DNA of 39,258 bases from an uncultured Bacteroidota bacterium (GTDB lineage: Bacteria > Bacteroidota > Bacteroidia > Chitinophagales > LD1), in NCBI GenBank assembly GCA_903919075.1, contig CAIXGR010000041.1, positions 1-39,258 of the forward strand. Reading direction: 5' to 3'. Shown here one piece after another: positions 2,313 through 31,576 of the stretch; positions within the stretch are counted from its first letter, which is position 1, and each line of letters starts with the position of its first letter. A program made the translations under genes and the position numbers. The notes under the pieces are model-generated. The model saw only the letters and a list, made by a program, of their open reading frames with translations, searched no databases and was not told where the DNA came from.

Positions 2313-2392
2313 GTATATCCGGTAATTTTTTACTGATAAATACTGAAGTGAAGTTGGCTGATAGTTTTGATACCAGCAAAAAAATTATTTCC

Positions 2393-2442
2393 GAATTATC
2401 GGATTTCTAAATGTTTATATTCTTATTAAGATGCGGGCATTA
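2393..2442. repeat. Intergenic repeat, copy A (partner at 9051-9131)
   Basis: Two exact blocks, GAATTATCGGATTTCTAAA (2393-2411) and GATGCGGGCATTA (2430-2442), recur in the same order and orientation at 9051-9069 and 9119-9131. Both copies lie upstream of minus-strand propeller genes (starts at 2312 and 8928). The last bases of the second block here overlap the stop codon of the next gene. They may be leftovers of a duplicated upstream region or shared control sites. Confidence 0.6.
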
Positions 2443-4461
2443 TAGCTTCACCAACTTTTTAACTGCTATACCGGTACCGGTAGTAACACGCAGCAAATAA
2501 ACGCCACCGGCAAATTGAGCAGCAATTTCGGTGTGCGTATTTCGTATTTCGGTTTTGTAAACTATTCTTCCATTATCGTCGAGTATTTCAAGTTGTGCGC
2601 CAATTAAATTATTGCCGATTGATAATTGCCAATTGCCAACTGATAGAGGGTTGGGGTAGATGGAAATGTTTTCGTAATCGCTAATATCGTGTATACCGGT
2701 GATTCTTGTAGGTAAGGAAAATGAGGTGCAGCCGTTACTATCGGTAACTGAAACGGTGTAATTGCCAAAGGTATGTGCTATGTATATATTTTGTGTAGCA
2801 CCCGGTATGGGGTTATCGTTGAGGTACCATTGTACATTGGTTTCGTTATATACACGCAGTGTATCGCCGCTTAGCGAAATACTTACCGGTGGCGATTGGT
2901 GCACAATAATACCAATATGGTTCGATTCGGCGGTACAACCGCTGTTATCGGTTACGGTTACGTAATAGTTGCCCGCGCTTTTAGCTTCGATGCACTTACC
3001 GGTGCTGTTGTTGTTCCAGGTGTAGCTTGAAAAACCGGATGGGGCGCAAATTTGAGTGCTGTCGGTAGGGCAAACGGTGGTTACATTTGTGGTTATCACT
3101 GGTGTGCTGAGATTGCAATTTACCGAGCAAAATGAATTACCAAAACAGGCGGGGTTTAATACATATTTCCAGAGGTCGTTGTAAGTAAAAAAACTGCTAT
3201 CTATTCCTCCAAACATCCAGAGATTATGGTTTTTGTCGGTAAAGGCACATGAGCCACAGCGTCCTGTGGGGTAGTTTTGAGCCGAGGCCACTCCCTGGGT
3301 TCCGTAACTACCGGTAAGCGGGTATTCGTTTATTTCTAACCATTCATTTTCCTGGGGTAAAAAGCCCCAAAGGTCGTTTTGTATAAATTCAGGCCAGTTT
3401 CCGGTAAAGCCTCCGTAGTTAACAATCAGGCCGTCGCAAACTTTCCAGGTAGCCCGGTTCTCGCACCGGCCACCTTCCTGGTTGCTCATATTGGCCTGGC
3501 AATTGGCCGAAGCTACATTGACGGAATCGAGCGCTGATGAACCTTTTACCAGGGTCCATTCGAGCAATGCCGGGTCAAATTTCCATACGTCAATAAAGAA
3601 ATTATCGAGGAAAAAAATACCGCCTCCTGCCATCCAGAAAATGTCCGAATCGTCCTGCCAGTGCAAATTGGACGAGCGCGACGAAGGGTAATAATTTAAA
3701 GACGAAACCCCCAGCGGCCCGTACGAGCCGGGGTCGTTGGCGTTTTTACTGCCACTCATCCAAGCCCAATTGCCGGTGGTAACATTATAGCGCCACATAT
3801 CATTATAAGTAAATAAATTATCATCAAGGCCGCCAAAAAGCCAAAGGTTACCGCTGTTATCTATCCATGAAGCGTTGGTTTCCCACCGGCCACCGGGTGT
3901 ATTTGCAGCATTGCCCACCAACTTGGTGCCGTATACAGGAGGTGCATAAGCCCCTTGCGGCCCGTTCATCCACGCCCATTGATTAATTGCCGGATCATAT
4001 TGCCAAAGATCGCTGCTTGCCGATAAATCAGAGGCGCCACCATACATCCATAAATGATTTTTTTTATCTACCCAGGTAAAAATACCATACTCCAGTCCAC
4101 CGGGGTCGTTTAACGGATCAAAAACCCCTGAAGCATTTGCAAAATACGGAGGTGAATCCAAGGTATCACCATTCATCCAGGTCCACATCATTATATTGGG
4201 GTCAAATTTCCATAAAGTTCCTATAGCGTAGCCACTCATGGTTGCACCACCATACATCCATAAATTACCGGCAGTATCGGTCCAAAATCCGGGAGCATAA
4301 AGAGCAGGTGGGGTATTAGAGGGCGAGGGCACGCCTTCAATACCGAACGAGCCGGTGCTATTTACTGTGCTATCCCCTTTCACCCATGTCCATTCACCGG
4401 CTTGGCTGTAAGCGAGTGATGGAAGTAAGAGAAGGAGAAAAAGATGGGGGTATAATTTCAT
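2440..4461 (-). CDS. Secreted Kelch-propeller protein with T9SS sorting domain (copy 2)
   Basis: A 673-residue paralogue of its neighbours on both sides. The signal peptide ends near LAYSQ, and mature protein begins QAGEWTWVKG, which resembles the last strand of a Kelch blade. Six blades follow (cores NLWMYGG, HLWMYGG, NLWLFGG, IFWMAGG, IVNYGG, NLWMFGG), then the shared cassette of two Ig-like units and a T9SS type A domain ending KKLVKL. The N-terminal propeller differs more from copies 1 and 3 than the cassette does. Its cassette carries LSVGNWQLSIGNNLIGAQ, closer to copy 1 than to copies 3 and 4. It has its own upstream gap of 112 bp, so it may be transcribed alone. Confidence 0.85.
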   Translation of the reverse strand: MKLYPHLFLLLLLPSLAYSQAGEWTWVKGDSTVNSTGSFGIEGVPSPSNTPPALYAPGFWTDTAGNLWMYGGATMSGYAIGTLWKFDPNIMMWTWMNGDTLDSPPYFANASGVFDPLNDPGGLEYGIFTWVDKKNHLWMYGGASDLSASSDLWQYDPAINQWAWMNGPQGAYAPPVYGTKLVGNAANTPGGRWETNASWIDNSGNLWLFGGLDDNLFTYNDMWRYNVTTGNWAWMSGSKNANDPGSYGPLGVSSLNYYPSSRSSNLHWQDDSDIFWMAGGGIFFLDNFFIDVWKFDPALLEWTLVKGSSALDSVNVASANCQANMSNQEGGRCENRATWKVCDGLIVNYGGFTGNWPEFIQNDLWGFLPQENEWLEINEYPLTGSYGTQGVASAQNYPTGRCGSCAFTDKNHNLWMFGGIDSSFFTYNDLWKYVLNPACFGNSFCSVNCNLSTPVITTNVTTVCPTDSTQICAPSGFSSYTWNNNSTGKCIEAKSAGNYYVTVTDNSGCTAESNHIGIIVHQSPPVSISLSGDTLRVYNETNVQWYLNDNPIPGATQNIYIAHTFGNYTVSVTDSNGCTSFSLPTRITGIHDISDYENISIYPNPLSVGNWQLSIGNNLIGAQLEILDDNGRIVYKTEIRNTHTEIAAQFAGGVYLLRVTTGTGIAVKKLVKL

Positions 4462-4490
4462 TTAATAAATATACGAAAAAGTTTAAGGTT

Positions 4491-4530
4491 GGCTCCCCGC
4501 ACCCTCTAACTCCCTAAAGGGAGAACCGCT
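4491..4530. repeat. 40-bp intergenic repeat, copy A
   Basis: The block from GGCTCCCCGCACCCTCTAAC to GAACCGCT recurs at 6796-6835 in the same orientation with one difference (GGGAGAA here, GGGCGAA there). Each copy lies upstream of a Kelch gene start (4461 and 6592). An internal CTCCCTAAAGGGAG is itself a short palindrome. Repeats of this C-rich/AAAGGG type are often scattered between genes in Bacteroidota. Confidence 0.75.
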
Positions 4531-4573
4531 GCCCTGCATCCCCCTACATTTTTAAATTTCTTGATTCGTGGTT

Positions 4574-6592
4574 CTATAACTTCACTAACTTTCTAACTGC
4601 CATACCGGTACCGGTAGTAATACGCAGCAAGTAAACGCCGCCCGAAAAGTGTGTGGCAATTTCGGAATGTGTGTTTCGTATTTCTGATTTGTAAACTATT
4701 CTTCCGTTGTCGTCGAGTACTTCCAGTTGTGCGCCGATTAAATTATTATCAACTGATAATTGCCATTTGCCCGCTGATAAGGGGTTGGGGTAGATGGAAA
4801 TGTTTTCGTATTCGCTAATGTCTTGTATACCGGTGATTGTTGTGGGTAGAGAAGAGGAGGTGCAGCCATTACTATCAGTAACCTGAACAGTGTAGCTGCC
4901 AAAGTTGCGGGCTATATAAATATTTTGAGTAGCGTTTTGTATTGGGTTATCGTTCAAATACCATTGCACATTGGTTTCGTTATACACCCGCAAAGTATCG
5001 CCGCTTTGCGAAATGCTTACCGCTGGCGATTGAAAAGCTGTAATGCTTACGTGGTTCGATTCGGCGGTGCAGCCGTTGTTGTCGGTTACGGTTAGGTAGT
5101 AGTTGCCGGCGGTTTTGGCTTGTATGCACTTACCGGTGCCGTTGTTGTTGTTCCAGGAGTATGATGCAAAGTTTGAGGGGGCGCAAATTTGGGCGCTATC
5201 GGTGGGGCAGATGGTGGGGGTGGATGAGGTGATTGTGGGTGAGCTGAGGTTGCAGCTAGTTACGGATGGAGAACAATACAAACTGCCGAGACAGCTGGTG
5301 TCTAATACGTATTTCCACAAGGTGTTATAAACATCTCCAATGCTATCCATTCCACCAAACATCCAAATATTATTGTTTTTATCTTTAAGGCCAACAGCGC
5401 CCGATCGGGGTGGTGGAAAATTGTTTGGGCTGCTTATGCCCAGAGTGCCATAGTAACCACCAGGAGGCCCGTCTGAAATTTTTTCAAAACTGTTTTGTGA
5501 GGGGGAATATGCCCATAAATCGTTCCGAGCATATAATTTTGATCCGAAGCCATCCAAACCCGAAAGGCCGCCAAAATTAAGAATGACTTCATCGCAAATT
5601 TTCCAAATGGCTCTGTTTTCGTATCGTAATCCCTCGCTATTTGAAATATTAATATTGCAAAGTGTGCCTCGGGCAGCACTTGAATCAGGAAATTGTGATC
5701 CTTTTACCCAAGTCCAGGCTAATGTTTGCGGATTGAAATTCCAAACATCCTGAACAAAGGCGGAAGTAGCCCATTGGAATCCTCCGGCCAACCAAAATTT
5801 CCCCATGCTGTCTATCCAAAAAACATTGGTGTTTCTACCGGATGGATAATTATTAACCGAGGCGACCCCTTGCGTACCATATATACCCGGGTCATCGGCG
5901 TTATTTGAGCCGCTCATCCAGGTCCATATGCCAGTGGTCACATCATATTTCCACACATCATTATTATCGCCAAATGACGCATTCCCGCCAAACAACCAAA
6001 GATTTCCCTGGTTGTCAGTCCAGGCGGCATTACCTTCTAACCTGGCACCCGGCATGGTAGTAATATTGCCTATCCCCATAGTTCCATAATTAACGGGGTC
6101 AAAGTTTCCCATCCACGCCCATTGGTTTACATCAGGGTTATATTGCCATAAATTGGCGTTAGGGCTATAGTAAGAGCTGCCGCCAAACAACCAAAGATGA
6201 TTATCGAGTGTTACCCAGGTAAACATGCCATACGCTATATAGCCGGGGGTGTTTAAAGAGTTGTATATGCCTTTAGCAGCGGCAATGTTTTCGTCACCTA
6301 CTAAAGAATCTCCGTTCATCCAAGTCCACTCTGTAGTCAGGGGATCAAATTTCCACAGGTCGCCAATACCACCCACTCCTCCGTAAATCCATAAATTGCC
6401 TTGTAGATCATTCCAATAGCCACAAGCATAACGTGATGGTGGTTGATTAGTTGGCGCAGGTACGCCCATTATGCCGAAGTTACCATAGTTGTTAGGCGTA
6501 CTATCTCCCTTCATCCAAGTCCACTCACCGGCTTGGCTGTATGCGATTGAAGGAAGAAGGAAAAGAAGAAATAAATGGGGGAACAATTTCAT
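4574..6592 (-). CDS. Secreted Kelch-propeller protein with T9SS sorting domain (copy 3)
   Basis: A 672-residue third Kelch paralogue. The signal peptide ends near IAYSQ; mature protein starts QAGEWTWMKG, the likely strand that closes the propeller. Six blades are visible (NLWIYGG, HLWLFGG, NLWLFGG, KFWLAGG, ILNFGG, NIWMFGG). The C-terminal cassette includes ICPTDSAQICAP, then the sorting domain ISIYPNPLSAGKWQLS to RKLVKL. The stretch LSAGKWQLSVDNNLIGAQ is shared exactly with the next gene (SBBP type) but not with copies 1 and 2, a mosaic pattern that suggests gene conversion or stepwise duplication. Location is probably the cell surface or exterior; the ligand is unknown. Confidence 0.85.
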   Translation of the reverse strand: MKLFPHLFLLFLLPSIAYSQAGEWTWMKGDSTPNNYGNFGIMGVPAPTNQPPSRYACGYWNDLQGNLWIYGGVGGIGDLWKFDPLTTEWTWMNGDSLVGDENIAAAKGIYNSLNTPGYIAYGMFTWVTLDNHLWLFGGSSYYSPNANLWQYNPDVNQWAWMGNFDPVNYGTMGIGNITTMPGARLEGNAAWTDNQGNLWLFGGNASFGDNNDVWKYDVTTGIWTWMSGSNNADDPGIYGTQGVASVNNYPSGRNTNVFWIDSMGKFWLAGGFQWATSAFVQDVWNFNPQTLAWTWVKGSQFPDSSAARGTLCNINISNSEGLRYENRAIWKICDEVILNFGGLSGLDGFGSKLYARNDLWAYSPSQNSFEKISDGPPGGYYGTLGISSPNNFPPPRSGAVGLKDKNNNIWMFGGMDSIGDVYNTLWKYVLDTSCLGSLYCSPSVTSCNLSSPTITSSTPTICPTDSAQICAPSNFASYSWNNNNGTGKCIQAKTAGNYYLTVTDNNGCTAESNHVSITAFQSPAVSISQSGDTLRVYNETNVQWYLNDNPIQNATQNIYIARNFGSYTVQVTDSNGCTSSSLPTTITGIQDISEYENISIYPNPLSAGKWQLSVDNNLIGAQLEVLDDNGRIVYKSEIRNTHSEIATHFSGGVYLLRITTGTGMAVRKLVKL

Positions 6593-6728
6593 TTAATAAA
6601 TATAGGAAAGTTTTAAAGGTTCGAGTTTCAAGTCGGTTTTTAGCACCCTTTTTCAAAGCACTTAATTGATAAGCAGAAGTTTTGCATGTTGCTGCCCGTA
6701 GCCTCACCCCGTCTCGCTGCGCTCGCCA

Positions 6729-6753
6729 CCCCTCTCCATTGCATGGAGAAGGG
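6729..6753. repeat. Intergenic hairpin
   Basis: CCCCTCTCCAT (6729-6739) pairs with ATGGAGAAGGG (6743-6753) across a TGC loop, an 11-bp stem with one mismatch. There is no T-run on either side. It lies in the 266-bp gap upstream of the gene starting at 6592. This kind of CCTCTCC/GGAGAGG hairpin is a common dispersed intergenic motif; no function is proposed. Confidence 0.6.
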
Positions 6754-6795
6754 AATACAAGGGTGATGCCTTCGGCACGATGTTGAGAGGACGAC

Positions 6796-6835
6796 GGCTC
6801 CCCGCACCCTCTAACTCCCTAAAGGGCGAACCGCT
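6796..6835. repeat. 40-bp intergenic repeat, copy B
   Basis: Same 40-bp unit as at 4491-4530, with a single base difference. It lies 24 bp beyond the stop codon of the SBBP gene (6859) and 204 bp upstream of the Kelch gene starting at 6592. The placement supports duplication of gene plus flanking DNA. Confidence 0.75.
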
Positions 6836-6858
6836 CCCCGTATACCTGCATTTACATG

Positions 6859-8928
6859 TTACAACTTTACCAGCTTTCTGACAGCGGTGCGGGCACCGGT
6901 GGTGATTCGTAGCAAATAAATCCCATTTTCAAACTGTGTGGCAATTTCGGAATGGGTGGTTTTTATTTCTGATTTGTAAACTATTCTGCCGTTGTCGTCG
7001 AGTATTTCTATTTGGGCGCCGATTAAATTATTATCAACTGATAATTGCCATTTGCCCGCTGATAAGGGGTTGGGGTAGATGGAAATGTTTTCGTATTCGC
7101 TAATGTCTTGTATACCGGTGATTCGGGTGGGTAGGGAAAAGGAGGTGCAGCCGTTGGTATCGGTAACTGAAACGGTGTAATTGCCAAAGGTGTGTGCTAT
7201 GTAAATATTTTGTGTGGCGTTCGGTATGGGGTTATTGTTCAAATACCATTGTACATTAGTTTCGTTATACACCCGCAAGGTATCGCCGCTTTGCGAGATG
7301 CTTACCGGTGGGGATGGAAAGGCTGTAATGCTTACATGGTTCGATTCGGCAGTGCAGCCGTTGTTATCGGTTACGGTTAGGTAGTAGTTGCCTGCGGTTT
7401 TGGCTTGTATGCATTTACCGGTGCCGTTGTTGTTGTTCCAGGTGTAGGAAGCAAAGTTTGCGGGGGCGCAAATTTGGGCGCTATCGGTGGGGCAAATGGA
7501 GGTGGTGGTTGGGGTTATGTTGGGGGAGGCGAGATTGCAGGTTTGATTGCATGCGGGCAAATTGGTAAAATTGAATTTGGCAACAAAGGCATTTTCGATA
7601 CCTTGGTTGAAGATGTAATTGTTGCCAAGCGCAAAGGTATCGGGCATAAAATCACCGCCAAGATATAAATCGCAGGTTCTACTGATACTGATACCACTTT
7701 GGTCGTCGCCGCCACTTGGCAGCGCGGTTCCGCAAAGGGCTTTTCCGTTTGAATCGAAAACCATAATAAACATGGGGTCGGTGTTTACGGGTGGCAGGTA
7801 TAAAGTAACCGAGTCGAAAGTGACAGTGTTGGAGGTAAAGCCTGCTGATACATATATGTTATTATCGCCATCTGACGTGAGGCCGTAGCCGGCATTTCGG
7901 CGGTTAAGTTGCCCCGAGCGTTTGCCCCATATGGCATTTCCGCCGGTGTCGCATTTTAGAAGAAAAAAATCTGCGCCGAGGTTGCTGTTGTTTGCCCCAA
8001 TGAGCGTAACAGACCCAAAATTCAGCGTGTTGTCAAATTCGCCTGTAATATACAGATGGTTGTTTTTGTCGGTTTCAATAGCCATAGGTGTTACCCAACC
8101 GGTGATAGATTTTACCCATTGCAATTGGCCGGATGAATCGTACTTAGCTAAAAAGCCATCATTATCGCCAAGAGCGAGAGCACCAGTTACGTAAACATTA
8201 TTGAAATCATCTGTGGTTACTGCCATTGCCACCCAGGTAAGGGTATCGGCCCATAAAACATTTCCCGAGCCGCTGTATTTGACAACAAAACCCGCCGTGC
8301 TGCCGGGCCCATTGGGTGTGGGAACCGGCAGGGTAATATTTCCAAAAGAAATATTGTTGCCGTAGGCGGTACCCGCACATATCACATTCCCGCTATTATC
8401 GGTTGTAACACTTTTGCCTTCAGTGCCGTTATTGCCTCCGCCGGTTTCGGCAGATGCCTCGGCCCTGGCCCAAATGATTTGGCCGGAGGTATCATATTTA
8501 CAGACAAAAAAAGTCCAGTTTCCGCCTGTGTTTGCGGTAAGTGTGATGGTATCCATTGATATGTAACCACCGGCAAAGGTGCCGGTAACATATATATTAC
8601 TGTGGCCATCTATTGCCAGCCCTGTACCGGATGAAGTACTGCCTGAGCTTAAAATAGGGGCCTTTACCCAGCGGAATGCACCGGAAGGGGAATAAGAGGC
8701 TAAAAAATAATCCGGCAATGGGTTTTGAAAATTAGTGTTGTTAAACTGTACCCCATTTTGAAATTCGCCGGTTAGGTAAACATTACTATTCCAGTCGACT
8801 GCAGTAGCTACCCCTTCCTGCTGGTGGCCGGTGGCTTGTGTGGCCCACTGCCAATTTACCGATTGGCTGAAAGTAAAGGCAGACAACAGTAACATACAAA
8901 GGAGACAGTAAATAGTTTTGGGGATCAT
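6859..8928 (-). CDS. Secreted SBBP-repeat propeller protein with T9SS sorting domain
   Basis: A 689-residue protein with a signal peptide ending near TFSQS. About seven SBBP-type repeats run to residue 455, with cores such as NVYLTGEF, NIYVTGTF, NVYVTGAL, HLYITGEF and NIYVSAGF, each followed by a K-Y-x-x-x-G-x-x-x-W strand. The N-terminal VNWQWA looks like the strand that closes the propeller. From about residue 460 the protein changes to the same cassette as the three Kelch genes, about nine residues in ten identical by eye. The cassette thus joins two unrelated propeller types. Its upstream region carries the blocks also found before Kelch copy 1. Surface location by T9SS is well supported; function is unknown. 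Confidence 0.85.
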   Translation of the reverse strand: MIPKTIYCLLCMLLLSAFTFSQSVNWQWATQATGHQQEGVATAVDWNSNVYLTGEFQNGVQFNNTNFQNPLPDYFLASYSPSGAFRWVKAPILSSGSTSSGTGLAIDGHSNIYVTGTFAGGYISMDTITLTANTGGNWTFFVCKYDTSGQIIWARAEASAETGGGNNGTEGKSVTTDNSGNVICAGTAYGNNISFGNITLPVPTPNGPGSTAGFVVKYSGSGNVLWADTLTWVAMAVTTDDFNNVYVTGALALGDNDGFLAKYDSSGQLQWVKSITGWVTPMAIETDKNNHLYITGEFDNTLNFGSVTLIGANNSNLGADFFLLKCDTGGNAIWGKRSGQLNRRNAGYGLTSDGDNNIYVSAGFTSNTVTFDSVTLYLPPVNTDPMFIMVFDSNGKALCGTALPSGGDDQSGISISRTCDLYLGGDFMPDTFALGNNYIFNQGIENAFVAKFNFTNLPACNQTCNLASPNITPTTTSICPTDSAQICAPANFASYTWNNNNGTGKCIQAKTAGNYYLTVTDNNGCTAESNHVSITAFPSPPVSISQSGDTLRVYNETNVQWYLNNNPIPNATQNIYIAHTFGNYTVSVTDTNGCTSFSLPTRITGIQDISEYENISIYPNPLSAGKWQLSVDNNLIGAQIEILDDNGRIVYKSEIKTTHSEIATQFENGIYLLRITTGARTAVRKLVKL

Positions 8929-23810: not shown

Positions 23811-24797
23811 TTACTTTTTTATATTTTCTATCCGGTCTTCTTTACGCGGCGAGTAGTCGGTTTTTATAGCCCCGTCCACCAATATTTTTTCGAAATAGCA
23901 TTTAACACCGGTTGCCAGTTCCATATCTTCAATATTTTCAATATGAAAATGTAAATGGGGTTCGGTTGAGTTGCCACTGTTGCCGCAAAGGCCCAGCAAT
24001 GTGCCAAGCTTAATTTTTTGCCCTTGTCGCACTTTTATGGTATGCGGTTTAAAATGCATGAACACCAAATATTCGTTGTTTTTTGTTTTTATAATAATAA
24101 CATTTCCGGTAGCAAAAACAGTGTTCCGTTCGCCGGGTATATTGTCTTTAATGCCATCAACAGCTAAAACTACTTCGCCATCGCATGGGGCAATAATTTT
24201 TTGCCCATAAGCATAATAGTCTTCATTGTTTTTTCCATCATTTTTGTACGACTTACCATTTCTATTTTTAATTATTATATCAAACGCACTTTTTTGTGCC
24301 TGCACGCCAATATGGTGGTTCGAGCCTTTATTATCACCGCCCCACAATACTGTCCATGCTCCATTAAAAGGCAGCTGCATTGGGGTAATGTTCCGCGCCA
24401 TTATGGGCAGGGTATCGGGAACATAAGGGCGAATATTATACCCTATAAGTTTTCCTTGTGTGTCGATACACATAAATATGCTGAAAAGGGAGTTTTCGAA
24501 TTTTGCTTTGTATACTGCACAGTCTGATTCAGATTTTTCCAAATCTTTTGTAACAATAGCACCGGCATCCATTCTTAAATTCGACAAATACATATTAGCA
24601 TTTCCACGGCTAACCGTGTTTTTCATGTCGGTTGAATACATACTATAAACGCTATCAAATTGCCCTTTGTTGTAGAAGTTTTCAAACCGGGCAATAACGG
24701 CTTTATGGTCTGCCAGGGTTATTTGGGCATTAATACTAGATGAGCTAAACAGTAATACCAGAAGGATGCAATTTATTAATGGCACGCGTATTTTCAT
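23811..24797 (-). CDS. M23 family metallopeptidase with N-terminal DUF3887-like domain (copy 1)
   Basis: A 328-residue exported protein with a signal peptide ending INAQ. Residues about 28-120 form an NTF2/DUF3887-like domain (VIARFENFYNKGQFDSVYSM). The M23 endopeptidase domain follows with zinc ligands and catalytic residues: H161/H162 and D173 (HHIGVQAQKSAFD), H248 (FMHFKPH) and H281-x-H283-x-H285 (HLHFHIEN). GEVVLAVDGIKDNIPG and GNVIIIKT are typical of LytM folds. Such enzymes cut peptide cross-links in peptidoglycan or other Gly-rich peptides. The active site looks intact. It is a tandem paralogue of the gene at 24841-25830 on the same strand, 43 bp away. Confidence 0.88.
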   Translation of the reverse strand: MKIRVPLINCILLVLLFSSSSINAQITLADHKAVIARFENFYNKGQFDSVYSMYSTDMKNTVSRGNANMYLSNLRMDAGAIVTKDLEKSESDCAVYKAKFENSLFSIFMCIDTQGKLIGYNIRPYVPDTLPIMARNITPMQLPFNGAWTVLWGGDNKGSNHHIGVQAQKSAFDIIIKNRNGKSYKNDGKNNEDYYAYGQKIIAPCDGEVVLAVDGIKDNIPGERNTVFATGNVIIIKTKNNEYLVFMHFKPHTIKVRQGQKIKLGTLLGLCGNSGNSTEPHLHFHIENIEDMELATGVKCYFEKILVDGAIKTDYSPRKEDRIENIKK

Positions 24798-24840
24798 GTT
24801 TCACATTTGTACGAGTGTAAAATAAAGCTTCTATAACCAA

Positions 24841-25830
24841 TTATTGGATGTTTTCTAAGTTATCACCTTTAACCGGTGAATAATCGGTTCTTACGTTCCC
24901 GTTAAGTAAAATTTTACTGAAGTAGCACTTTACACCGGTAGCATTATTTATATATTCAATATTTTGAATATGAAAATGAATATGCGGCTCGGTTGAATTT
25001 CCGCTATTTCCGCAAAGGCCCAATACTTCGCCTTGTTTAATTTTTTGCCCTTCAGTTACTTTTATGGTGTGTTGCTTAAAATGGCAAAGAACTAAATGTT
25101 CGTTATTTGCGGTTTTTATAATTACTGTATTTCCGGGAGAAAAATAAGTGTTCTGTTCTCCAGGTATATTGTCTTTTATACCATCTACCGCCAAAACAAC
25201 TTCGCCGGCGGCAGGGGCAACAATTTCCTGGCCAAAGGCATAATAATCTTCGTTGGTGGTTCCATTGGTTTTGTATGTTTTGCCAATTTTATCTCTAACA
25301 ACCACATCGAAAGCGTTTTTTTGTGCCGGTACATTCAAATGATGATTCATCTCTCTAGTATCCCCTCCCCACAAAACCGACCATTTGCCGTTAAAAGGTA
25401 GTTTTAAAGAAGTTATGTTCCGCTCAATGTAAGGAAAAGTATCGGGTGAATAGGGGCGTACGTAATAAGTGGAAATTCTTCCGCTAGTATCATTGCAAAG
25501 GTTGATGCTAAATAGGGCGTTTTCAAATTTTGTTTTATAGTATGCGCAGCCGGCATCAAATTTTTCAAAATCGAGTGTAACTATTCGCCCTACGTCGTTT
25601 CTTAAATTGATTAGAAAAGTAGTTACGTTCAGTCGCGGAATACTCGACTGTAAATCGAGTGAAAACATATTGTAAATGCTATCGTGCCTTCCGTTGTTAT
25701 AATAATGTTCAAATTTTTCCGCAATCGCTTTATTGTCCTCTGCGGTTGATTGTGCATTACTATTAAGCGAACAAACCGAAAAAAGTAAAAGGGAATGAAA
25801 AATTAAAAAAGGGGGAACCTTTATTTTCAT
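24841..25830 (-). CDS. M23 family metallopeptidase with N-terminal DUF3887-like domain (copy 2)
   Basis: The start at 25830 (MKIKVPPFLIF, a signal peptide ending NAQS) is chosen because the longer in-frame start at 25974 would run through the marR promoter and into marR. This gives 329 residues. The layout matches copy 1: an NTF2/DUF3887-like domain with KFEHYYNNGRHDSIYNMF, then M23 with HHLNVPAQKNAFD, a central H in LCHFKQH, and HIHFHIQN. All expected zinc and catalytic positions are kept, so both copies could be active. Divergence is spread along the protein. It is transcribed divergently from marR. Confidence 0.87.
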   Translation of the reverse strand: MKIKVPPFLIFHSLLLFSVCSLNSNAQSTAEDNKAIAEKFEHYYNNGRHDSIYNMFSLDLQSSIPRLNVTTFLINLRNDVGRIVTLDFEKFDAGCAYYKTKFENALFSINLCNDTSGRISTYYVRPYSPDTFPYIERNITSLKLPFNGKWSVLWGGDTREMNHHLNVPAQKNAFDVVVRDKIGKTYKTNGTTNEDYYAFGQEIVAPAAGEVVLAVDGIKDNIPGEQNTYFSPGNTVIIKTANNEHLVLCHFKQHTIKVTEGQKIKQGEVLGLCGNSGNSTEPHIHFHIQNIEYINNATGVKCYFSKILLNGNVRTDYSPVKGDNLENIQ

Positions 25831-25908
25831 GTTTGCTGAGTATTGGAATGTAAAATAGGACTTTTCGGGCCAAATTTTGCTGTAAAGTGTAACATTTCCA
25901 TTATCAAT

Positions 25909-25940
25909 AGTTGTATATACAACTATGTTTAGTATCTTTG
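25909..25940 (+). promoter_or_regulatory. marR promoter with overlapping palindromic operator
   Basis: AGTTGTATATACAACT (25909-25924) is a perfect 16-bp palindrome. Its TTG (25911-25913) is also the -33 box, followed after 19 bp by TATCTTTG (25933-25940), an exact Bacteroidota -7 element, 4 bp before the marR start codon. A regulator bound here would block the promoter. The core TTGTATATACAA recurs before the next two genes. Confidence 0.85.
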
Positions 25941-25944
25941 CGGT

Positions 25945-26397
25945 ATGAGTTTGGAAGAAGATATAAAACAACAAAAGAAATTTGCCAACGAGTTTGAAAA
26001 AGCTGCCGTTAATATTTTATACACCAGCAACTGGCTATATAATATTAATGCAGGGCACCTTAAAAAACACGACATAACGCCTGAGCAATATAACGTGTTG
26101 CGCATATTGCGCGGCTCGTTCCCCAAGCCGCTGATGTTGGGTGAGGTTAGTTGCAGAATGCTTGATAAATCAAGCAATTCCACACGTTTGGTAGAAAAAT
26201 TGAGACAAAAAGGATGGGTTAAAAGAGAGGTATGCGAGAACAGCCGCCGCCAGGTAGATATTATGATAACCGATAAGGGTTTGGCTATACTTACAAAGAT
26301 TGATAATGATGAGAATGTGCTGCTTGATGCTGTTAAATCAATAAGCAAACAAGAGGCAGAAGAGCTGAACCGTATATTAGATAAGTTAAGAAAATAA
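25945..26397 (+). CDS. MarR family transcriptional regulator
   Basis: A 150-residue winged-helix repressor. The dimerisation helices lie at both ends; the DNA-binding core runs about 45-110 with HDITPEQYNVLRILRG, GEVSCRMLDKSSNSTRLVEK (recognition region) and the wing with RRQVDIMITDKGLAIL. It starts 4 bp after its -7 element, so its transcript has almost no leader. The palindrome in its own promoter and the same core before pirin and yceI suggest it represses itself and its neighbours. No Cys is obvious in the N-terminal sensing position of OhrR types, so a small ligand (quinone, phenolic) is more likely than a thiol switch; this is inference. Confidence 0.9.
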   Translation: MSLEEDIKQQKKFANEFEKAAVNILYTSNWLYNINAGHLKKHDITPEQYNVLRILRGSFPKPLMLGEVSCRMLDKSSNSTRLVEKLRQKGWVKREVCENSRRQVDIMITDKGLAILTKIDNDENVLLDAVKSISKQEAEELNRILDKLRK

Positions 26398-26415
26398 AAA
26401 AAGGTTCAATAATAT

Positions 26416-26445
26416 TTGTATATACAACAATTGTTATTACCTTTG
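26416..26445 (+). promoter_or_regulatory. pirin promoter with MarR-type operator
   Basis: The palindrome TTGTATATACAA (26416-26427) supplies the -33 TTG; after 19 bp comes TACCTTTG (26438-26445), an exact -7 element. Geometry is identical to the marR promoter. The start codon of the pirin gene lies 25 bp further. Confidence 0.85.
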
Positions 26446-26469
26446 TTGTGAAATTAAAAAGGAGCATTT

Positions 26470-27180
26470 ATGAAAAAGTTAGTTTACAGGGCGGAAGACA
26501 GGGGTGCCGCTAACCACGGATGGCTGAATGCAAAACATTCATTCAGCTTTGCCAATTATCACGACCCTGAAAAAGTTCACTTTGGTTTATTACGCGTGTT
26601 GAATGACGACACCATAGCACCGGCAATGGGTTTTGGAATGCACCCGCACGATAACATGGAAATTGTAACCATTCCGCTTGAAGGAGCAATAAAGCACCGC
26701 GATAGTATGGGCAACGAAGGTATTATTAAAGCAGGTGATGTGCAGATAATGAGCGCCGGTAAAGGAATTGTGCATTCGGAAGTTAATGCATCAACTACTG
26801 AGCCTTTAAAGCTATTTCAAATATGGGTGTTTCCGAAAGAGCATAATATTCAACCGCGCTACGGACAAAAAACTTTTTTGCCCGAAGCGCGCAAAGGAAA
26901 ATTTCAAACCCTGGTTTCGCCAAATGCTGAAGATGGTTCGTTAGCCGTAAATCAGGATGTATGGTTTACCATGGGCGATTTTGCAGCGGGCCAAAAGGTT
27001 TCATATACTGCTAAATTAGCTACTAATGGGGCTTATTTAATGGTAGTAAAGGGCGATGTAAAAGTTGCAGGTGAAACACTAAAGGAAAGAGATGCCATTG
27101 GTATTTCAGATATAGCGCAAATTGATATTGAAACAATTAGCGATGCCGAGTTGTTAGTTATTGATGTTCCAATGGATTAA
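26470..27180 (+). CDS. Pirin family protein (quercetinase-like bicupin)
   Basis: A 236-residue cytoplasmic cupin. The metal-binding set is complete: H58 and H60 (MHPHDNMEIV), H102 and E104 (GIVHSEVN), as in YhhW/pirin proteins that oxidise quercetin or act as redox-responsive regulators. Opening residues GAANHGWLNAKHSFSFANY are typical. Gap of 72 bp from marR carries its own promoter and operator, so it can be expressed separately from marR. Together with YceI, FMN reductase and OsmC it suggests a role in the response to aromatic or quinone-like electrophiles. The natural substrate is unknown. Confidence 0.93.
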   Translation: MKKLVYRAEDRGAANHGWLNAKHSFSFANYHDPEKVHFGLLRVLNDDTIAPAMGFGMHPHDNMEIVTIPLEGAIKHRDSMGNEGIIKAGDVQIMSAGKGIVHSEVNASTTEPLKLFQIWVFPKEHNIQPRYGQKTFLPEARKGKFQTLVSPNAEDGSLAVNQDVWFTMGDFAAGQKVSYTAKLATNGAYLMVVKGDVKVAGETLKERDAIGISDIAQIDIETISDAELLVIDVPMD

Positions 27181-27211
27181 GTAGGGCCGGAACATTTTTT
27201 TGAACCAATAC

Positions 27212-27223
27212 TTGTATATACAA
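27212..27223 (+). promoter_or_regulatory. MarR-type operator before yceI
   Basis: A third copy of the palindrome TTGTATATACAA, 48 bp before the YceI start codon. Unlike the other two copies, no TAnnTTTG lies at the expected distance (the bases there are TAACAAAT), so the promoter is weaker or differently placed. Confidence 0.75.
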
Positions 27224-27271
27224 TAATATTAATAACAAATATTTTTTCACCAATCATAAAAACAAAAAATT

Positions 27272-27808
27272 ATGTCAACTAATGCAGCAACAAAATGGGC
27301 GATTGATCCAGCTCACTCAGAAATAGGATTTAAAGCAAAACACCTGATGATAACTAACGTATCGGGAAAATTTGACAAATTCAGTTCAACTGTTGAAACT
27401 GATGGAGATGATTTTACAACGGCGCAGGTAACTTTTACTGCTGAGGCCGCTTCGATAAACACCGGTAGCGAACAGCGTGACGGGCACATTAAGGGCCCCG
27501 ATTTTTTTGATGCGGAAAAATACCCGCAACTGAAGTTCGTTTCTACAAAGTGGGAAAAGGTAAAAGACAATCAATTCCGTTTAACCGGAGATCTTACCAT
27601 TCGCGATGTGACCAAAGCGGTAACTTTAGATGTTGAAGCCGGGGGTTCTGCTAAAGACCCTTGGGGAAATACAAAAGCAGGTTTTTCTATTGCCGGTAAA
27701 ATAAACCGTAAAGACTGGGGTTTAAATATGAATATGTCGCTTGAAACTGGCGGTGTATTAGTAAGCGAAGAAATAAAAATTCATTGCGAAGTTCAGTTTG
27801 CAAAATAA
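27272..27808 (+). CDS. YceI family protein
   Basis: A 178-residue lipocalin-like beta-barrel. WAIDPAHSEIGFKAKHLMIT and VSGKFDKFS at the start, RDGHIKGPDFFDAEKYPQLKF split over two strands, and GFSIAGKINRKDWGLN near the end are the family landmarks. YceI proteins bind polyisoprenoids such as quinone precursors. No signal peptide is present, so this copy is cytoplasmic, unlike periplasmic E. coli YceI. The upstream palindrome ties it to the MarR regulator; a strong hairpin follows its stop by 47 bp. Confidence 0.92.
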   Translation: MSTNAATKWAIDPAHSEIGFKAKHLMITNVSGKFDKFSSTVETDGDDFTTAQVTFTAEAASINTGSEQRDGHIKGPDFFDAEKYPQLKFVSTKWEKVKDNQFRLTGDLTIRDVTKAVTLDVEAGGSAKDPWGNTKAGFSIAGKINRKDWGLNMNMSLETGGVLVSEEIKIHCEVQFAK

Positions 27809-27855
27809 GCTTAATTATAAGTGTGGTTTATGTTTTAAGTGAGTGAATGATGGTG

Positions 27856-27895
27856 AAGAGCCTCCGTGGCCCCGTGCGTCACGGAGGACTCTTTT
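27856..27895 (+). terminator. Rho-independent terminator after yceI
   Basis: AAGAGCCTCCGTG (27856-27868) pairs with CACGGAGG plus CTCTT (27880-27887, 27889-27893), with one bulged A, followed by TTCCTT. It separates yceI from the FMN reductase gene. Two ATG codons at 27847 and 27850 lie on the 5' side of this stem, which argues against them as starts of the next gene. Confidence 0.85.
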
Positions 27896-27921
27896 CCTTA
27901 TTACGATTAAAAAAGAAGAAA

Positions 27922-28497
27922 ATGAAAATTGCAATCTTATCGGGCAGTATACGTAAGGGTAGAAGAAGCCACAAAATTGCCGTTGAATTACAAAACCGGT
28001 TTATCAGGGCCGGTTTTGGTGCAACAGATGTGATTGATTTAGGCGAAACCGCACTGCCTTTACTAGAAGATGAAAGATTCCATTTAAATTCATCGCCAAC
28101 ACCGGCTATGTCAGATATACACCACCGGTTGAACGATGCTGATGCTATTATATTTCTTTCGCCAGAGTACCATGGCAGTTACACCGGCACTTTAAAAAAT
28201 GCCATTGATTATTTTTGGAGTGAGTTTACCAAAAAGCCTATTGGCGTTGTGGCAGTCTCGGCCGGTAAGTTTGGTGGCATTAATACATCAACACTATTGC
28301 AGCAGTTGGTGCTTTCACTCGGGGCTTTTCCTATGCCCACTAAGTTGTTGGTGCCAATGGTGGAAAATGCTTTTAATGAAAATGATGTGGTAATTGATGA
28401 ACCACTTTCGAAAAGCATTGATAAATTTGTTTCGGAATTTACCTGGTTTGCCGATGCCATTATCAGCAAAAAAACAGGCCGGCGGCAACAACGCTGA
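27922..28497 (+). CDS. NADPH-dependent FMN reductase / azoreductase-like flavoprotein
   Basis: The ATG at 27922 (MKIAILSGSIRKGRRS) is chosen, since the longer in-frame start at 27847 lies in the terminator and adds 25 unlike residues. This gives 191 residues. GSIRKGRRS (8-16) is the FMN phosphate loop, and SPEYHGSYTGTLKNAIDY is the hallmark second flavin motif. Enzymes of this group reduce FMN, quinones or azo compounds with NAD(P)H. The OsmC gene starts 21 bp after its stop, so the two form a unit. No copy of the MarR-type palindrome lies directly before it; it may depend on read-through of the terminator or an unseen promoter. Confidence 0.9.
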   Translation: MKIAILSGSIRKGRRSHKIAVELQNRFIRAGFGATDVIDLGETALPLLEDERFHLNSSPTPAMSDIHHRLNDADAIIFLSPEYHGSYTGTLKNAIDYFWSEFTKKPIGVVAVSAGKFGGINTSTLLQQLVLSLGAFPMPTKLLVPMVENAFNENDVVIDEPLSKSIDKFVSEFTWFADAIISKKTGRRQQR

Positions 28498-28518
28498 ATT
28501 CCGCAAACTAAAATCAAT

Positions 28519-28917
28519 ATGCCTGCAACCGCAAAAGCCCATATTGGGCGCAACCACTATCACATTAATATTACATCTGGCGGCAACAACACTCTTATTG
28601 CAGATGAACCCGAAGAAAATGGTGGTAAAAATAAAGGCTTTAGCCCATCTGAACTATTAATTTCGGCATTGGGTGCCTGTACCTGTGCCACCCTGCGCAT
28701 GTATGCCGACCGCAAGGAAATGAAACTTGAAGAAGTAAAGGTTGACCTTAGTTTTACACGCGACGAAGAAAACAATATCACCCACATTTCCCGTCACATC
28801 GAACTTATTGGCCAACTGAGTACTGACGAAAAACACAAGCTGCTGCAAATAGCTAATAAATGCCCCATCCATAAAGCACTCAGTAATCCTATACATATTG
28901 AAACTAAGATTGTTTGA
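28519..28917 (+). CDS. OsmC family protein (organic hydroperoxide-type)
   Basis: A 132-residue cytoplasmic protein. The two conserved Cys regions are LGACTCATLRMYA (C54, C56) and NKCPIHKAL (C115), as in OsmC/YhfA proteins that reduce organic hydroperoxides by a Cys pair. SPSELLISALGAC is the family signature helix. It is shorter than Ohr and nearer the YhfA-like subgroup. It is co-oriented and 21 bp from the FMN reductase gene, completing a set of stress-type redox genes downstream of marR. Confidence 0.92.
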   Translation: MPATAKAHIGRNHYHINITSGGNNTLIADEPEENGGKNKGFSPSELLISALGACTCATLRMYADRKEMKLEEVKVDLSFTRDEENNITHISRHIELIGQLSTDEKHKLLQIANKCPIHKALSNPIHIETKIV

Positions 28918-28950
28918 GGAAGTTGGGCTTTTGCGATGGATATAGAGAGC

Positions 28951-29298
28951 CTAGTTTTTATAAAAGGTAACTATTATACCGCCGGTAACTATAAACAGCC
29001 CGCCTATAAGAGTAGGCAAAGTAGGTGTTGTTTGAAAGGCAATAAAATTAATAAACTGCCAAACAATAAATAAGGTGGCTATATACAGTCCTACAACTTG
29101 TCCAAACCCCACCGGTGCTAAATTGAGCGAAAATCCATACACAAATAACAATATCATGCCCAACAACATCAAGCCTATTCGAATAAGGCCCGTGTGTTTA
29201 TAAATAGCCATCCGCACAATGGCATCTCCGCTAACTTCAAAAATTGTAGCAATAAGAATAAAAAATATGGGGTGAAAATTTTGAGTGCTTTTTAGCAT
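28951..29298 (-). CDS. Small multidrug resistance (SMR/EmrE-like) membrane protein
   Basis: A 115-residue protein with four hydrophobic segments (about 10-30, 36-56, 66-88, 93-113). Glu21 in ATIFEVSGDAIVR sits in the first segment at the place of EmrE Glu14, the proton and drug-binding residue. The last helices read GLYIATLFIVWQFINF and PTLIGGLFIVTGGIIV, as in SMR or DMT family members. Such proteins work as dimers exchanging protons for cations. It faces the OsmC gene in convergent orientation. The divergence is considerable, so a different small DMT-type function is possible. Confidence 0.7.
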   Translation of the reverse strand: MLKSTQNFHPIFFILIATIFEVSGDAIVRMAIYKHTGLIRIGLMLLGMILLFVYGFSLNLAPVGFGQVVGLYIATLFIVWQFINFIAFQTTPTLPTLIGGLFIVTGGIIVTFYKN

Positions 29299-29346
29299 AA
29301 GAATTATTTCTTAGCTAAGTTAACCATATCTTTAATATTACCGGTG

Positions 29347-30144
29347 CTAGGGATAATAAGTTATATAGCTGGAATCCAACAGTTCGCCGCTTTGGTTGCG
29401 GGTTACGCACATGGTTGCTTTACCATGTTCATCAAAAGTATATTTAAAAAGGCTTACTTCAATTGTATCTCCTTCAGGCGAAATTTGCACGGTTCTTTTT
29501 TCAATATTTTTAGCCCCCTCTCCAAATTCGGGTGAACCATAATTTTGGAAAGCAAGTGTTTTTATTTTATCGGTAAAGTATTCGCTGTAAACGGTGTATT
29601 CTTTACCGGTGGTAGTAATTGAAACGGTGTCGTTCGTTTTCGTAACTGGGTTATAAGTAATTTTAGCAACGTAAGGTTCAACATGCATTACGATGTATGA
29701 AATTACGTTGCCATTGCCCAAGGTTTTTCGGGTTATGGTATATGCCTGCCCCGGCTTGCTTTCGTGTTCTTCTATGGCAAATCCATTAGCATCGTAAATA
29801 AATTTTTTGGTAGCTGTAATTTTTGTGCTGTCACTTTTTACCAGGCTGTCAACAAGCCCTCTTTTATTTAAAAAGCATATCCAGGTGCTGGTAACTTTTT
29901 CTGATTTATCGGAAGTTTTACCAGTTACTAAATTATCAGTATAGGTAATAATTGTTTTGCTTCCTTTAGTAGTACTAATTTCGGTAAGTATTCCCTCCTG
30001 ATTATAAGTGTAAGTAGAGGTGTAACCCCGCAACGCGTTATAAACAGTTTTTACGCGAAGGTGCGAGGTGCACTGGTGTCGCCTTACACATGCAGGAATA
30101 AATACAATCAACAATAATACGGCAAAACACCCCAACGTTTTCAT
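29347..30144 (-). CDS. Putative lipoprotein with YD-like strand repeats
   Basis: A 265-residue protein whose N-terminus (hydrophobic 7-18, then FIPAC with Cys19) suggests a lipoprotein; Pro at the -2 position is not standard. The mature part has repeated strands such as YTSTYTYNQEGILTEI, KKFIYDANGFAIEEHE and SLFKYTFDEHGKATMC, each a Y-x-Y/F-x-x-x-G pattern like Rhs/YD or MORN-like strand repeats. Many Bacteroidota have such small surface lipoproteins without known role. A near-perfect promoter lies directly upstream (30159-30187). Confidence 0.6.
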   Translation of the reverse strand: MKTLGCFAVLLLIVFIPACVRRHQCTSHLRVKTVYNALRGYTSTYTYNQEGILTEISTTKGSKTIITYTDNLVTGKTSDKSEKVTSTWICFLNKRGLVDSLVKSDSTKITATKKFIYDANGFAIEEHESKPGQAYTITRKTLGNGNVISYIVMHVEPYVAKITYNPVTKTNDTVSITTTGKEYTVYSEYFTDKIKTLAFQNYGSPEFGEGAKNIEKRTVQISPEGDTIEVSLFKYTFDEHGKATMCVTRNQSGELLDSSYITYYP

Positions 30145-30158
30145 AATAGCAAGTTGCG

Positions 30159-30187
30159 CAAATCTAAATCTTCATAAAGGTACGCAA
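30159..30187 (-). promoter_or_regulatory. Promoter for the lipoprotein gene
   Basis: On the minus strand TTG (30187-30185), an 18-bp spacer and TAGATTTG (30166-30159) match the Bacteroidota consensus. The -7 box ends 15 bp before the start codon, so the leader is very short. Confidence 0.6.
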
Positions 30188-30279
30188 ACCTTGCACCGCC
30201 AATTGTTAAAGCAGGCTATTTTAAGTGTTATTACCAATTTTACACGCCGAAAGAGGTAGGTTGGGACTTGTATATATTA

Positions 30280-30304
30280 GTCTGACGGCCATTGGCCGCC
30301 AGAC
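30280..30304. other. Intergenic hairpin without T-run
   Basis: GTCTGACGGCC (30280-30290) pairs with GGCCGCCAGAC (30294-30304) around ATT, an 11-bp stem with a single A-C mismatch. It lies 73 bp past the stop of the minus-strand gene at 30377-30655 and upstream of the next minus-strand gene. It may terminate the former without a U-tract, or be a dispersed repeat. Confidence 0.55.
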
Positions 30305-30376
30305 AATTGACACCGAATAATAAGCACCCAGCCTATATCACCGGGTCAATAAAACATGAGGTGCTGGTAAATTCTT

Positions 30377-30655
30377 CTACACTTCCATCAGATATATTAC
30401 CTTAACGTGCACCGGTGTTTTTGGCTCATAATTTTTTATAATAATTGTTTTTCCATTAGGCGCAAGTTTACCATTAACCGGTTGATGGGTGCTGGTATAA
30501 TATAATTCAGTTACCTCTTTTACCTCTTTGGTATTTTGAGGCATGTATATCTGATAATCCCATTTGGGGTTTGAACCGGTGTTTTCAGAAGTTTGCGCAA
30601 AGCTAATGAGCGAAGCCAGAAGCATAATAGCGCAAGGAAAAATATTGCGAATCAT
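30377..30655 (-). CDS. Small secreted protein, function unknown
   Basis: The start at 30655 (MIRNIFPCAIMLLASLISFA) gives a clean signal peptide with cleavage near FAQTS and 92 residues; the longer in-frame start at 30739 adds 28 residues that break this up. The mature part is short and polar with an all-beta look (KTIIIKNYEPKTPVHVKVIY). I do not recognise a family. It is divergent from the CarboxypepD membrane protein gene. Confidence 0.55.
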   Translation of the reverse strand: MIRNIFPCAIMLLASLISFAQTSENTGSNPKWDYQIYMPQNTKEVKEVTELYYTSTHQPVNGKLAPNGKTIIIKNYEPKTPVHVKVIYLMEV

Positions 30656-30796
30656 AATGCTTGATTTACCCTTATAACGTTTTAAAAATTTGCTTATTGC
30701 TATACTAACCGCAAAAGATTGCAGAAAGATTACTGACAAAAAGAGGATTGGATTATGGAAACAGGTAGTTTTAGAATCTTAATGATTAAAAGCTCT

Positions 30797-31576
30797 ATGA
30801 AACAAAGCAGTTATAAACTTAAAATAGAGAATCCATGCAGCGAAGACTGGGGTTTAATGGCCAAGTGTGATGATGGAAAATTTTGCTCACATTGCTCGAA
30901 AATGGTAATTGATTTTACGCGGCTTACTGATGATGAGATTCTAAAAATGCTATCTAAAAATTCGGGAAATGTTTGCGGAAGATTAGATGAAAGCCAAATG
31001 AACCGGATTTTAGTGCCAAGCCAGCAGCCCAGCCAATCAAGAATTTATAGAATACTTGCAGGTTTATTGTTGTTAGCATCTTCTGGCAAATTATCCGCAG
31101 CAGGTGGACGGCCACAAACGGAAATGGTTTCGAAAGTGGATGAGGCAGATACTGTTAGTAAAATAGTTGATGATAATGTAAAGAAAAGTGAAGATAAAAG
31201 CTGTGAAAAAAATATTCTACATGGAAGAGTTATTGATGCCCAGGATAAAGAACCCATTTCGTTTGCTAATGTAATCATCAAGGATACTAAGGATGCTGTC
31301 ACAACAGATGTTGATGGTAAATTTCAGTTGGTTGTTCCCGATAGTTTGCTGTCGGAAAGAATTATCCTGAATGTAAGTTATCTTGGATATGAAAGAGCAG
31401 AGCTCACAATAAATAAAGAAGATTTATCAAAGCCAAGTGAGATTTTAATTAATCTGGTTTCACAGATTTATACAATGGGATTAGTGGGCGAGATTGCAAT
31501 TATTCAAAAAGAGAATGTATGGCAGAAGGTGAAGAGAAAAAGCCATAAGATATTTAGCAAACATACCGGTAAATAG
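30797..31576 (+). CDS. Membrane protein with Cys-rich N-terminus and CarboxypepD_reg-like domain
   Basis: The ATG at 30797 gives MKQSSYKLKIENPCSEDW, which puts the conserved P-C-x-E-D-W motif near the N-terminus; an upstream ATG at 30755 is also in frame. With this start the protein has 259 residues. Cys14, Cys24, Cys30 and Cys33 (PCSEDW, KFCSHC) look like a metal site. A single membrane helix is at about 84-101 (YRILAGLLLLASSG). A CarboxypepD_reg-like Ig domain follows (about 137-215: LHGRVIDAQDKEPISFANVI, DVDGKFQL, SYLGYERA). This layout, a cytoplasmic Cys-rich head and periplasmic Ig domain, recurs in Bacteroidota; its function is not known to me. Confidence 0.75.
   Translation: MKQSSYKLKIENPCSEDWGLMAKCDDGKFCSHCSKMVIDFTRLTDDEILKMLSKNSGNVCGRLDESQMNRILVPSQQPSQSRIYRILAGLLLLASSGKLSAAGGRPQTEMVSKVDEADTVSKIVDDNVKKSEDKSCEKNILHGRVIDAQDKEPISFANVIIKDTKDAVTTDVDGKFQLVVPDSLLSERIILNVSYLGYERAELTINKEDLSKPSEILINLVSQIYTMGLVGEIAIIQKENVWQKVKRKSHKIFSKHTGK

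Follow-up and report, generated by a model that had tools for sequence, protein, structure and literature searches.

A predicted autoregulated MarR-family switch with palindromic operators at the marR and pirin promoters of an uncultured Bacteroidota bacterium

The window, by which is meant the whole stretch of 39,258 nucleotides under analysis, contains a plus-strand gene row that begins with a MarR-family regulator and continues through pirin and yceI to two further genes (Table 1). Three exact copies of the 12-bp palindrome TTGTATATACAA lie in it within 1.3 kb, before marR, pirin and yceI, just where the preliminary description had located them. The hairpin behind yceI has an MFE of -31.7 kcal/mol (27840-27915; z -5.5), with 0/200 shuffles as stable, and is the only terminator-like site in 25800-29000, a scan that expects 3.3 by chance. 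The FMN reductase and OsmC genes had been listed as targets together with pirin and yceI. The latter two do have operators; the former have none of their own, and no further copy of the TTG-type operator word, TTGTANNTACAA, with one mismatch or fewer occurs in 24000-30999 beyond the three operators. With the hairpin in front of them as well, these two genes are the less certain members, even though an FMN reductase gene does follow within the same gene row in relatives. Upstream of marR, 23811-25830 holds two adjacent minus-strand ORFs that are alike in sequence, the second bearing Peptidase_M23 and DUF3887 domains (Pfam); this divergent M23 gene was matched at none of the other loci compared with the window locus. 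Elsewhere in the window, 28951-29298 is a small ORF that resembles a membrane protein and whose UPF0060 match stays below threshold (20.1 bits, cut-off 24.9), and 291-8928 comprises four tandem minus-strand ORFs of 672-689 aa, whose last ~200 residues are, by eye, nearly the same.

Table 1. Genes, operators and promoter elements of the marR locus, in window positions.
Feature	Positions	Strand	Description
operator 1	25907-25926		perfect 20-bp palindrome ATAGTTGTATATACAACTAT; core TTGTATATACAA at 25911-25922; its TTG is the -33 box
-7 box of marR promoter	25933-25940	+	TATCTTTG; 19 bp after TTG
marR	25945-26397	+	150-aa MarR-family winged-helix regulator (Pfam, AlphaFold, orthologues)
operator 2	26416-26427		TTGTATATACAA, before pirin; its TTG is the -33 box
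-7 box of pirin promoter	26438-26445	+	TACCTTTG; 19 bp after TTG
pirin	26470-27180	+	Pfam Pirin 122.3 bits, Pirin_C_2 91 bits; quercetinase-type C-terminal cupin
operator 3	27212-27223		TTGTATATACAA, before yceI
yceI	27272-27808	+	Pfam YceI 175.6 bits
terminator-like hairpin	27855-27894	+	separates yceI from the FMN reductase gene; T-rich tail
NADPH-dependent FMN reductase	27922-28497	+	Pfam FMN_red 112.4 bits
OsmC-family protein	28519-28917	+	Pfam OsmC 77.9 bits

The regulator is placed in its family by a Pfam MarR match (PF01047) of 30.5 bits, above the cut-off of 24.6; no NCBIfam model's cut-off is reached. The Pirin, Pirin_C_2, YceI, FMN_red and OsmC matches in Table 1 likewise exceed their Pfam cut-offs. 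Its predicted fold matches solved MarR-family structures in Foldseek, including 22oz (HpaR), 8ylg (MftR-DNA), and 3vod and 5h3r (MarR), at 18-30% identity among the 50 matches listed. In the AlphaFold model (mean pLDDT 78.9), the recognition helix spans residues ~79-88 and its start reads S77-N78-S79-T80-R81, while the wing consists of two strands, 92-96 and 104-108, and Cys97 lies in the stretch that joins these. Cys97 and Cys70 are the only cysteines, and none lies before residue 70. A paralogue with 40% identity is located behind a YceI gene (G000:C1:43320-43751, L070); its 7-kb locus has one site with no more than one mismatch, inside the paralogue gene itself, and no operator outside that coding sequence.

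Operator 1 had been described as a perfect 16-bp palindrome; it is indeed perfect, over a length of 20 bp. MarR-family operators are (pseudo)palindromes of 16-20 bp, according to the available portion of PMC6798810, and this one is a perfect 20-bp palindrome that covers the -33 region and whose core is kept, with one mismatch or fewer, in 17/17 genus loci. Promoters of Bacteroidota have a -33/-7 consensus of TTTG/TAnnTTTG with a G at -5, in the part of PMC6847099 consulted. Both elements are in place at sites 1 and 2, the -33 element reading GTTG at the former and TTTG at the latter. The TTG-19 bp-TAnnTTTG arrangement, which had been claimed for these two sites only, is exact at both, and site 3 has no TAnnTTTG at a 19-bp spacing from its TTG. 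Worked out from the -7 box of marR, the predicted +1 is the A of its own ATG, such that the transcript would be leaderless. The marR stop codon begins 21 bp ahead of operator 2.

This arrangement is retained within the genus. A marR orthologue occurs in 17 of the 18 genus genomes (57-77% identity outside the window), and the single genome that lacks a match is 82% complete. The preliminary description had suggested looking for the motif at orthologues in related genomes, and there operators 1 and 2 are both kept in 17/17 loci with one mismatch or fewer to TTGTANNTACAA, exactly so in 8 and in 16 loci, respectively. The -7 box lies at offset 22 from the start of operator 1 in 17/17 loci (last base G or A) and from the start of operator 2 in 15/17, and the marR start codon begins at the predicted +1 in 10/17, the window included. 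A promoter-coupled pattern, allowing one mismatch, matches in 17/18 genus genomes, where reversed controls yield 0-2 per genome. Operators 1 and 2 persist although the gene after marR varies, encoding pirin, YceI, a pirin-family protein of 290 aa or a DUF6069-like protein (26.8 bits, just below the cut-off of 27.2), and longer gene rows add FMN reductase, Haem_bd, DoxX and a LigB-type dioxygenase. Operator 3 is present in just 2/17 loci, namely the window, where it is exact, and its closest relative, which has it at the same place with one mismatch (TTGTATAGACAA).

Within its own genome, the predicted regulon looks local. Genome-wide, TTGTANNTACAA has 14 sites (control, 7), and of the 11 beyond the window's three, 10 lie inside ORFs, one of which is only 91 aa long. 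A wider regulon was considered and rejected on this distribution. The sole other intergenic TTGTANNTACAA found in the genome stands before an ftsQ-like gene (G000:C81:16177-16188, L161) and matches the promoter-coupled pattern with one mismatch. The preliminary interpretation is partly supported: conservation strongly favors the reading of the motif as a MarR operator, and two points are corrected, namely the extent of the regulon, which looks local, and the inclusion of FMN reductase and OsmC among its targets.

Judged by sequence comparison, loci from across the class show that operator type follows the MarR clade. An order search matched 151/298 genomes and a class search 194/395, and part of these were compared, giving 187 loci: 118 first, which include ones from genus-level searches as well as from the order search, and then 69, made up of 29 taken directly from the class search and 40 fetched with the best scores first, some being skipped. 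Dropped as copies of other loci were L018, L048 and L071-L083; L053 and some paralogue or family loci (e.g., L037-L039, L042, L043, L045, L047) are not among the 118. Grouping followed the identities of residues 78 and 80, located where the recognition helix begins, and a site was taken to be beside marR if it fell within 150 bp before the gene or after its stop. Beside marR, TTG-type TTGTANNTACAA is found in 23/35 Asn78/Thr80, 0/86 Asn78/Ser80, 1/61 Asp78/Ser80 and 0/5 Asp78/Thr80 loci, and a sister word, ATG-type ATGTANNTACAT, in 0/35, 37/86, 0/61 and 0/5, respectively. Many loci have no exact site there (12/35 Asn78/Thr80, 49/86 Asn78/Ser80), and nine carry mixed half-sites (3/35 Thr80, 6/86 Ser80), which count toward neither type. 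Apart from the one Asp78/Ser80 locus with a TTG-type site beside marR, another has an ATG-type site 1312 bp upstream. A prediction drawn from the first 118 loci and written down before the 69 new sequences were read mostly held on these: 4/7 Thr80 loci have the TTG type and 27/46 Ser80 loci the ATG type, with none crossed beside marR under the 150-bp rule, which was set when the new loci were read and was not in the prediction made beforehand. Without that rule, the TTG type occurs in 4/7 Thr80 and 4/46 Ser80 loci and the ATG type in 0/7 and 28/46. The predicted "never" was therefore broken by four new Ser80 loci with TTGTANNTACAA 610-667 bp upstream of marR (L234, L237, L239 and L252, all of one family).

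It is tempting to see in Thr80/Ser80 the specificity residue itself, a candidate that was rejected. Fisher tests on the residue-group counts ignore kinship, and in a 65-row tree the Thr80/TTG group amounts to one change (support 68/74), a single independent pair; the operator thus follows the regulator's clade, without the reading residue being named. TTG sites also occur outside the Thr80 group, at the four Ser80 loci already mentioned, at one Asp78/Ser80 locus and at two Ser-Arg proteins of a second MarR lineage considered below (L298 and L299, the former with an ATG-type site as well). Cys97 as a thiol switch likewise remains speculation: it is kept in 26/35 Asn78/Thr80, 65/86 Asn78/Ser80, 43/61 Asp78/Ser80 and 5/5 Asp78/Thr80 proteins, in all four groups alike, operator or not, and so does not go with the operator. 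The placement of the sites, too, differs by type. For TTG operators, the -7 box lies at offset 22 in 9/13 cases before marR and 15/19 after it, and in 16/19 the marR stop codon begins 20-22 bp ahead of the downstream operator. ATG operators before marR mostly have the -7 box at offset 11 (9) or 26 (13), of 33 sites; those downstream start 20-49 bp past the beginning of the stop codon (9/15 at 20-21), and since none of the 15 has TAnnTTTG within 52 bp, the occlusion geometry proposed below does not carry over to the ATG group.

To count gene linkage, up to seven ORFs downstream of marR were clustered by BLAST, and each cluster was named by Pfam on one representative or on its window member; with loci between 2.4 and 10.5 kb long, the counts are lower bounds. 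On this reckoning, YceI lies downstream in at least 59/121 Asn78 Thr/Ser80, 1/61 Asp78/Ser80 and 3/5 Asp78/Thr80 loci, and pirin in at least 39/121, 0/61 and 1/5. Among all 187 loci, FMN reductase is linked in 15, LigB and Haem_bd in 9 each, nitroreductase in 7, DoxX in 5 and OsmC in 4, with a muconolactone-isomerase-like gene and a 4Fe-4S gene in 4 apiece. Such gene content suits aromatic or quinone electrophile stress as the putative inducer class, and this reading gains from the LigB dioxygenase, DoxX, nitroreductase and muconolactone-isomerase-like genes linked in relatives.

With a probability of about 0.8, the locus encodes an autoregulated MarR repressor whose operators sit on the -33 boxes of marR and pirin; operators, geometry, conservation and linkage are read directly from the DNA, and from these we infer the dimer, its binding, the sign of regulation and the inducer. 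The 150-aa protein would act as a dimeric repressor on the palindrome (AT)AGTTGTA-NN-TACAACT(AT). Bound to operators 1 and 2, it would cover the TTG of the -33 element and bar RNA polymerase from the marR and pirin promoters, an occlusion by which the protein would repress its own gene and the pirin-yceI genes alike. As for operator 3, it probably either puts yceI under additional control or acts as a block to elongation. Release of the repressor would be brought about by a small inducer, aromatic, quinone-like or electrophilic in some other way. Among the points against this model are the many class loci that have no exact site beside marR, the exceptions to the predicted "never", the mixed half-sites, the lack of promoter geometry at operator 3, the presence of the same word at a second MarR lineage and the different geometry of downstream ATG-type operators.

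Could the operators be chance AT-rich palindromes? The word is AT-rich, and its inexact copies are without clear enrichment: sites with up to two mismatches in the window number 9 versus 4.4 expected (5/100 shuffles as high), and those with up to one mismatch in the genome number 30 versus 19 for the reversed control. The exact word behaves otherwise. As had been asserted from the start, three copies are not chance, 400 Markov-1 windows averaging 0.015 exact copies with no window above 1. In the 3,529,374-bp genome (97 contigs) there are six exact copies versus none of the reversed control word, which makes it anything but equally common at random places, and random placement brings 3/6 copies inside 1301 bp in only 2/400,000 draws. 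Of the three copies outside the window, all within ORFs, one falls in a norC-like cytochrome c gene and the other two in ORFs that look phage-like or structural. Taken with conservation, which in effect refutes a chance origin, such counts leave it a vanishingly small probability. A different question is whether the window's own MarR reads the operators, or another regulator does, be it of the GntR/TreR type or the second MarR; TreR is a GntR-family protein. That TTGTATATACAA is letter for letter the B. licheniformis TreR box at the trehalose operon, as given in the accessible part of PMC11356801, speaks for such a reader, but the GntR family has 0 matches at E 0.001 in the window's genome (99.6% complete), the same search matching 12/14 controls. 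The second MarR, too, has the word beside it. In three genus genomes TTGTATATACAA also lies before this other MarR gene, and it recurs before the following NmrA-like gene in the two stretches that are long enough (L114, L116). The lineage occurs in 3/18 genus genomes (E 1e-8) and 15/395 class genomes (E 1e-15), and 13 of its 18 loci (L114, L116, L117, L294-L308) have TTGTANNTACAA within 120 bp upstream or 110 bp downstream of the gene, the later site starting, in 10 loci, 16-27 bp past the beginning of the stop codon. The word alone, then, does not name its reader. The lineage is distantly related rather than unrelated, given its weak match to the window's MarR (32% over 77 residues, E 7e-4 in a single comparison). 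It has no match in the window's genome at E 1e-8, however, and operator type tracks subgroups of the window-type MarR across the class, so that reading by another regulator appears quite improbable.

Should the window's MarR be the reader, the standing of operator 3 is still debatable. It may be a relic, or a roadblock with no promoter of its own, the working unit being the marR-pirin pair only; the absence of TAnnTTTG at 19 bp and the rarity of the site (2/17 genus loci) point that way, while its exactness in the window, the one-mismatch copy at the same place in the closest relative and the linkage of YceI in 59/121 class loci count against this, and we would give the relic or roadblock somewhat less than an even chance. 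Comparable doubt attaches to the inducer. The repressor might respond not to a quinone or electrophile but to a phenolic or flavonoid, an antibiotic-like compound, an organic peroxide, or a membrane or isoprenoid signal. Phenolics are frequent ligands of MarR proteins, pirin can act as a quercetinase and YceI is an isoprenoid-binding protein, all of which would fit. Moreover, a thiol switch is not required, as Cys97 is not invariant (26/35 even in the Thr80 group) and Cys70 is rare, occurring in just 12/72 alignment rows, some of them duplicates. Conversely, the LigB dioxygenase, DoxX, FMN reductase, nitroreductase and muconolactone-isomerase-like genes linked in relatives partly resemble the MhqR and QsrR/YodB quinone regulons in their content of reductases, nitroreductase and dioxygenases, and a non-electrophile inducer, plausible as it is, has the odds slightly against it.

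The preferred reading, an autoregulated MarR repressor, predicts the operator, the promoter geometry and the targets of a MarR subfamily that is present in about half of the sampled class genomes (194/395 at E <=1e-30, a count that takes in the Asp78 group, where the operator is almost always lacking), and makes possible a concrete inducer search for the pirin/YceI cassette. More tentatively, and just short of even odds, one might propose that Bacteroidia share a MarR operator word, TGTA-NN-TACA, and a two-operator layout, with one operator before the regulator and another ~21 bp past the point where its stop codon begins. Two distantly related lineages would use them, and one of the two would have undergone a clade-wide switch between TTG..CAA and ATG..CAT. 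In genomes that harbor both, the lineages may then cross-regulate, the pirin/YceI and NmrA-like cassettes forming a single electrophile network. A literature search found no paper that joins MarR with pirin and YceI, nor with DoxX, pirin and quinone; text matches for TTGTATATACAA returned the TreR box only, and those for ATGTATATACAT four papers, among which no title points to a MarR study. The kind of switch is known, a MarR repressor, and no description of its operator, layout and target set was found in the literature, part of which was available as partial text. Because the same or the sister word recurs beside many related switches in the class, the find is real but of a familiar kind.

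Compared with known systems, the regulator shares the winged-helix MarR fold of HpaR, MftR and E. coli MarR (Foldseek), and at 18-30% identity among the matches listed the likeness seen here is one of fold. OhrR peroxide sensors have an N-terminal reactive Cys; here no Cys precedes residue 70, and the NCBIfam OhrR model (the Vibrio-type model listed) scores 19.4 bits against a cut-off of 200. The TreR box of Bacillus is the identical 12-bp word TTGTATATACAA in what is available of PMC11356801, but it serves trehalose genes, and no GntR-family protein was found in the window's genome. The QsrR/YodB regulons, with their quinone reductases, nitroreductase and ring-cleavage dioxygenases (PMC6798810, in the portion available), are partly similar in content. 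Their regulators, however, are of the DUF24 type with an N-terminal sensor Cys at position 4-7, whereas Pfam lists MarR models and no HxlR for the present protein, whose first Cys is residue 70. Another close system is MhqR of S. aureus and B. subtilis, a MarR repressor of mhqRED and related quinone genes in the available text of PMC6798810 and PMC12893000. It has the same MarR fold (PDB 9qdr is among the Foldseek matches listed), and, as those partial texts describe, it lies inside the operon that it represses, as is predicted here, with a palindromic operator at the promoter and, in S. aureus, a small local regulon. The operators differ, that of MhqR being a 9-9 bp element, TATCTCGAA-ATCGAAATA (PMC12893000, partial text), and the present one TTGTA-NN-TACAA, which sets the regulator apart from MhqR proper. 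So do the targets, MhqE/MhqD there and pirin/YceI here, and the placement: according to the same partial sources, the S. aureus operator extends from -6 to +12, whereas here the sites fall on the -33 boxes before both the regulator and the next gene.
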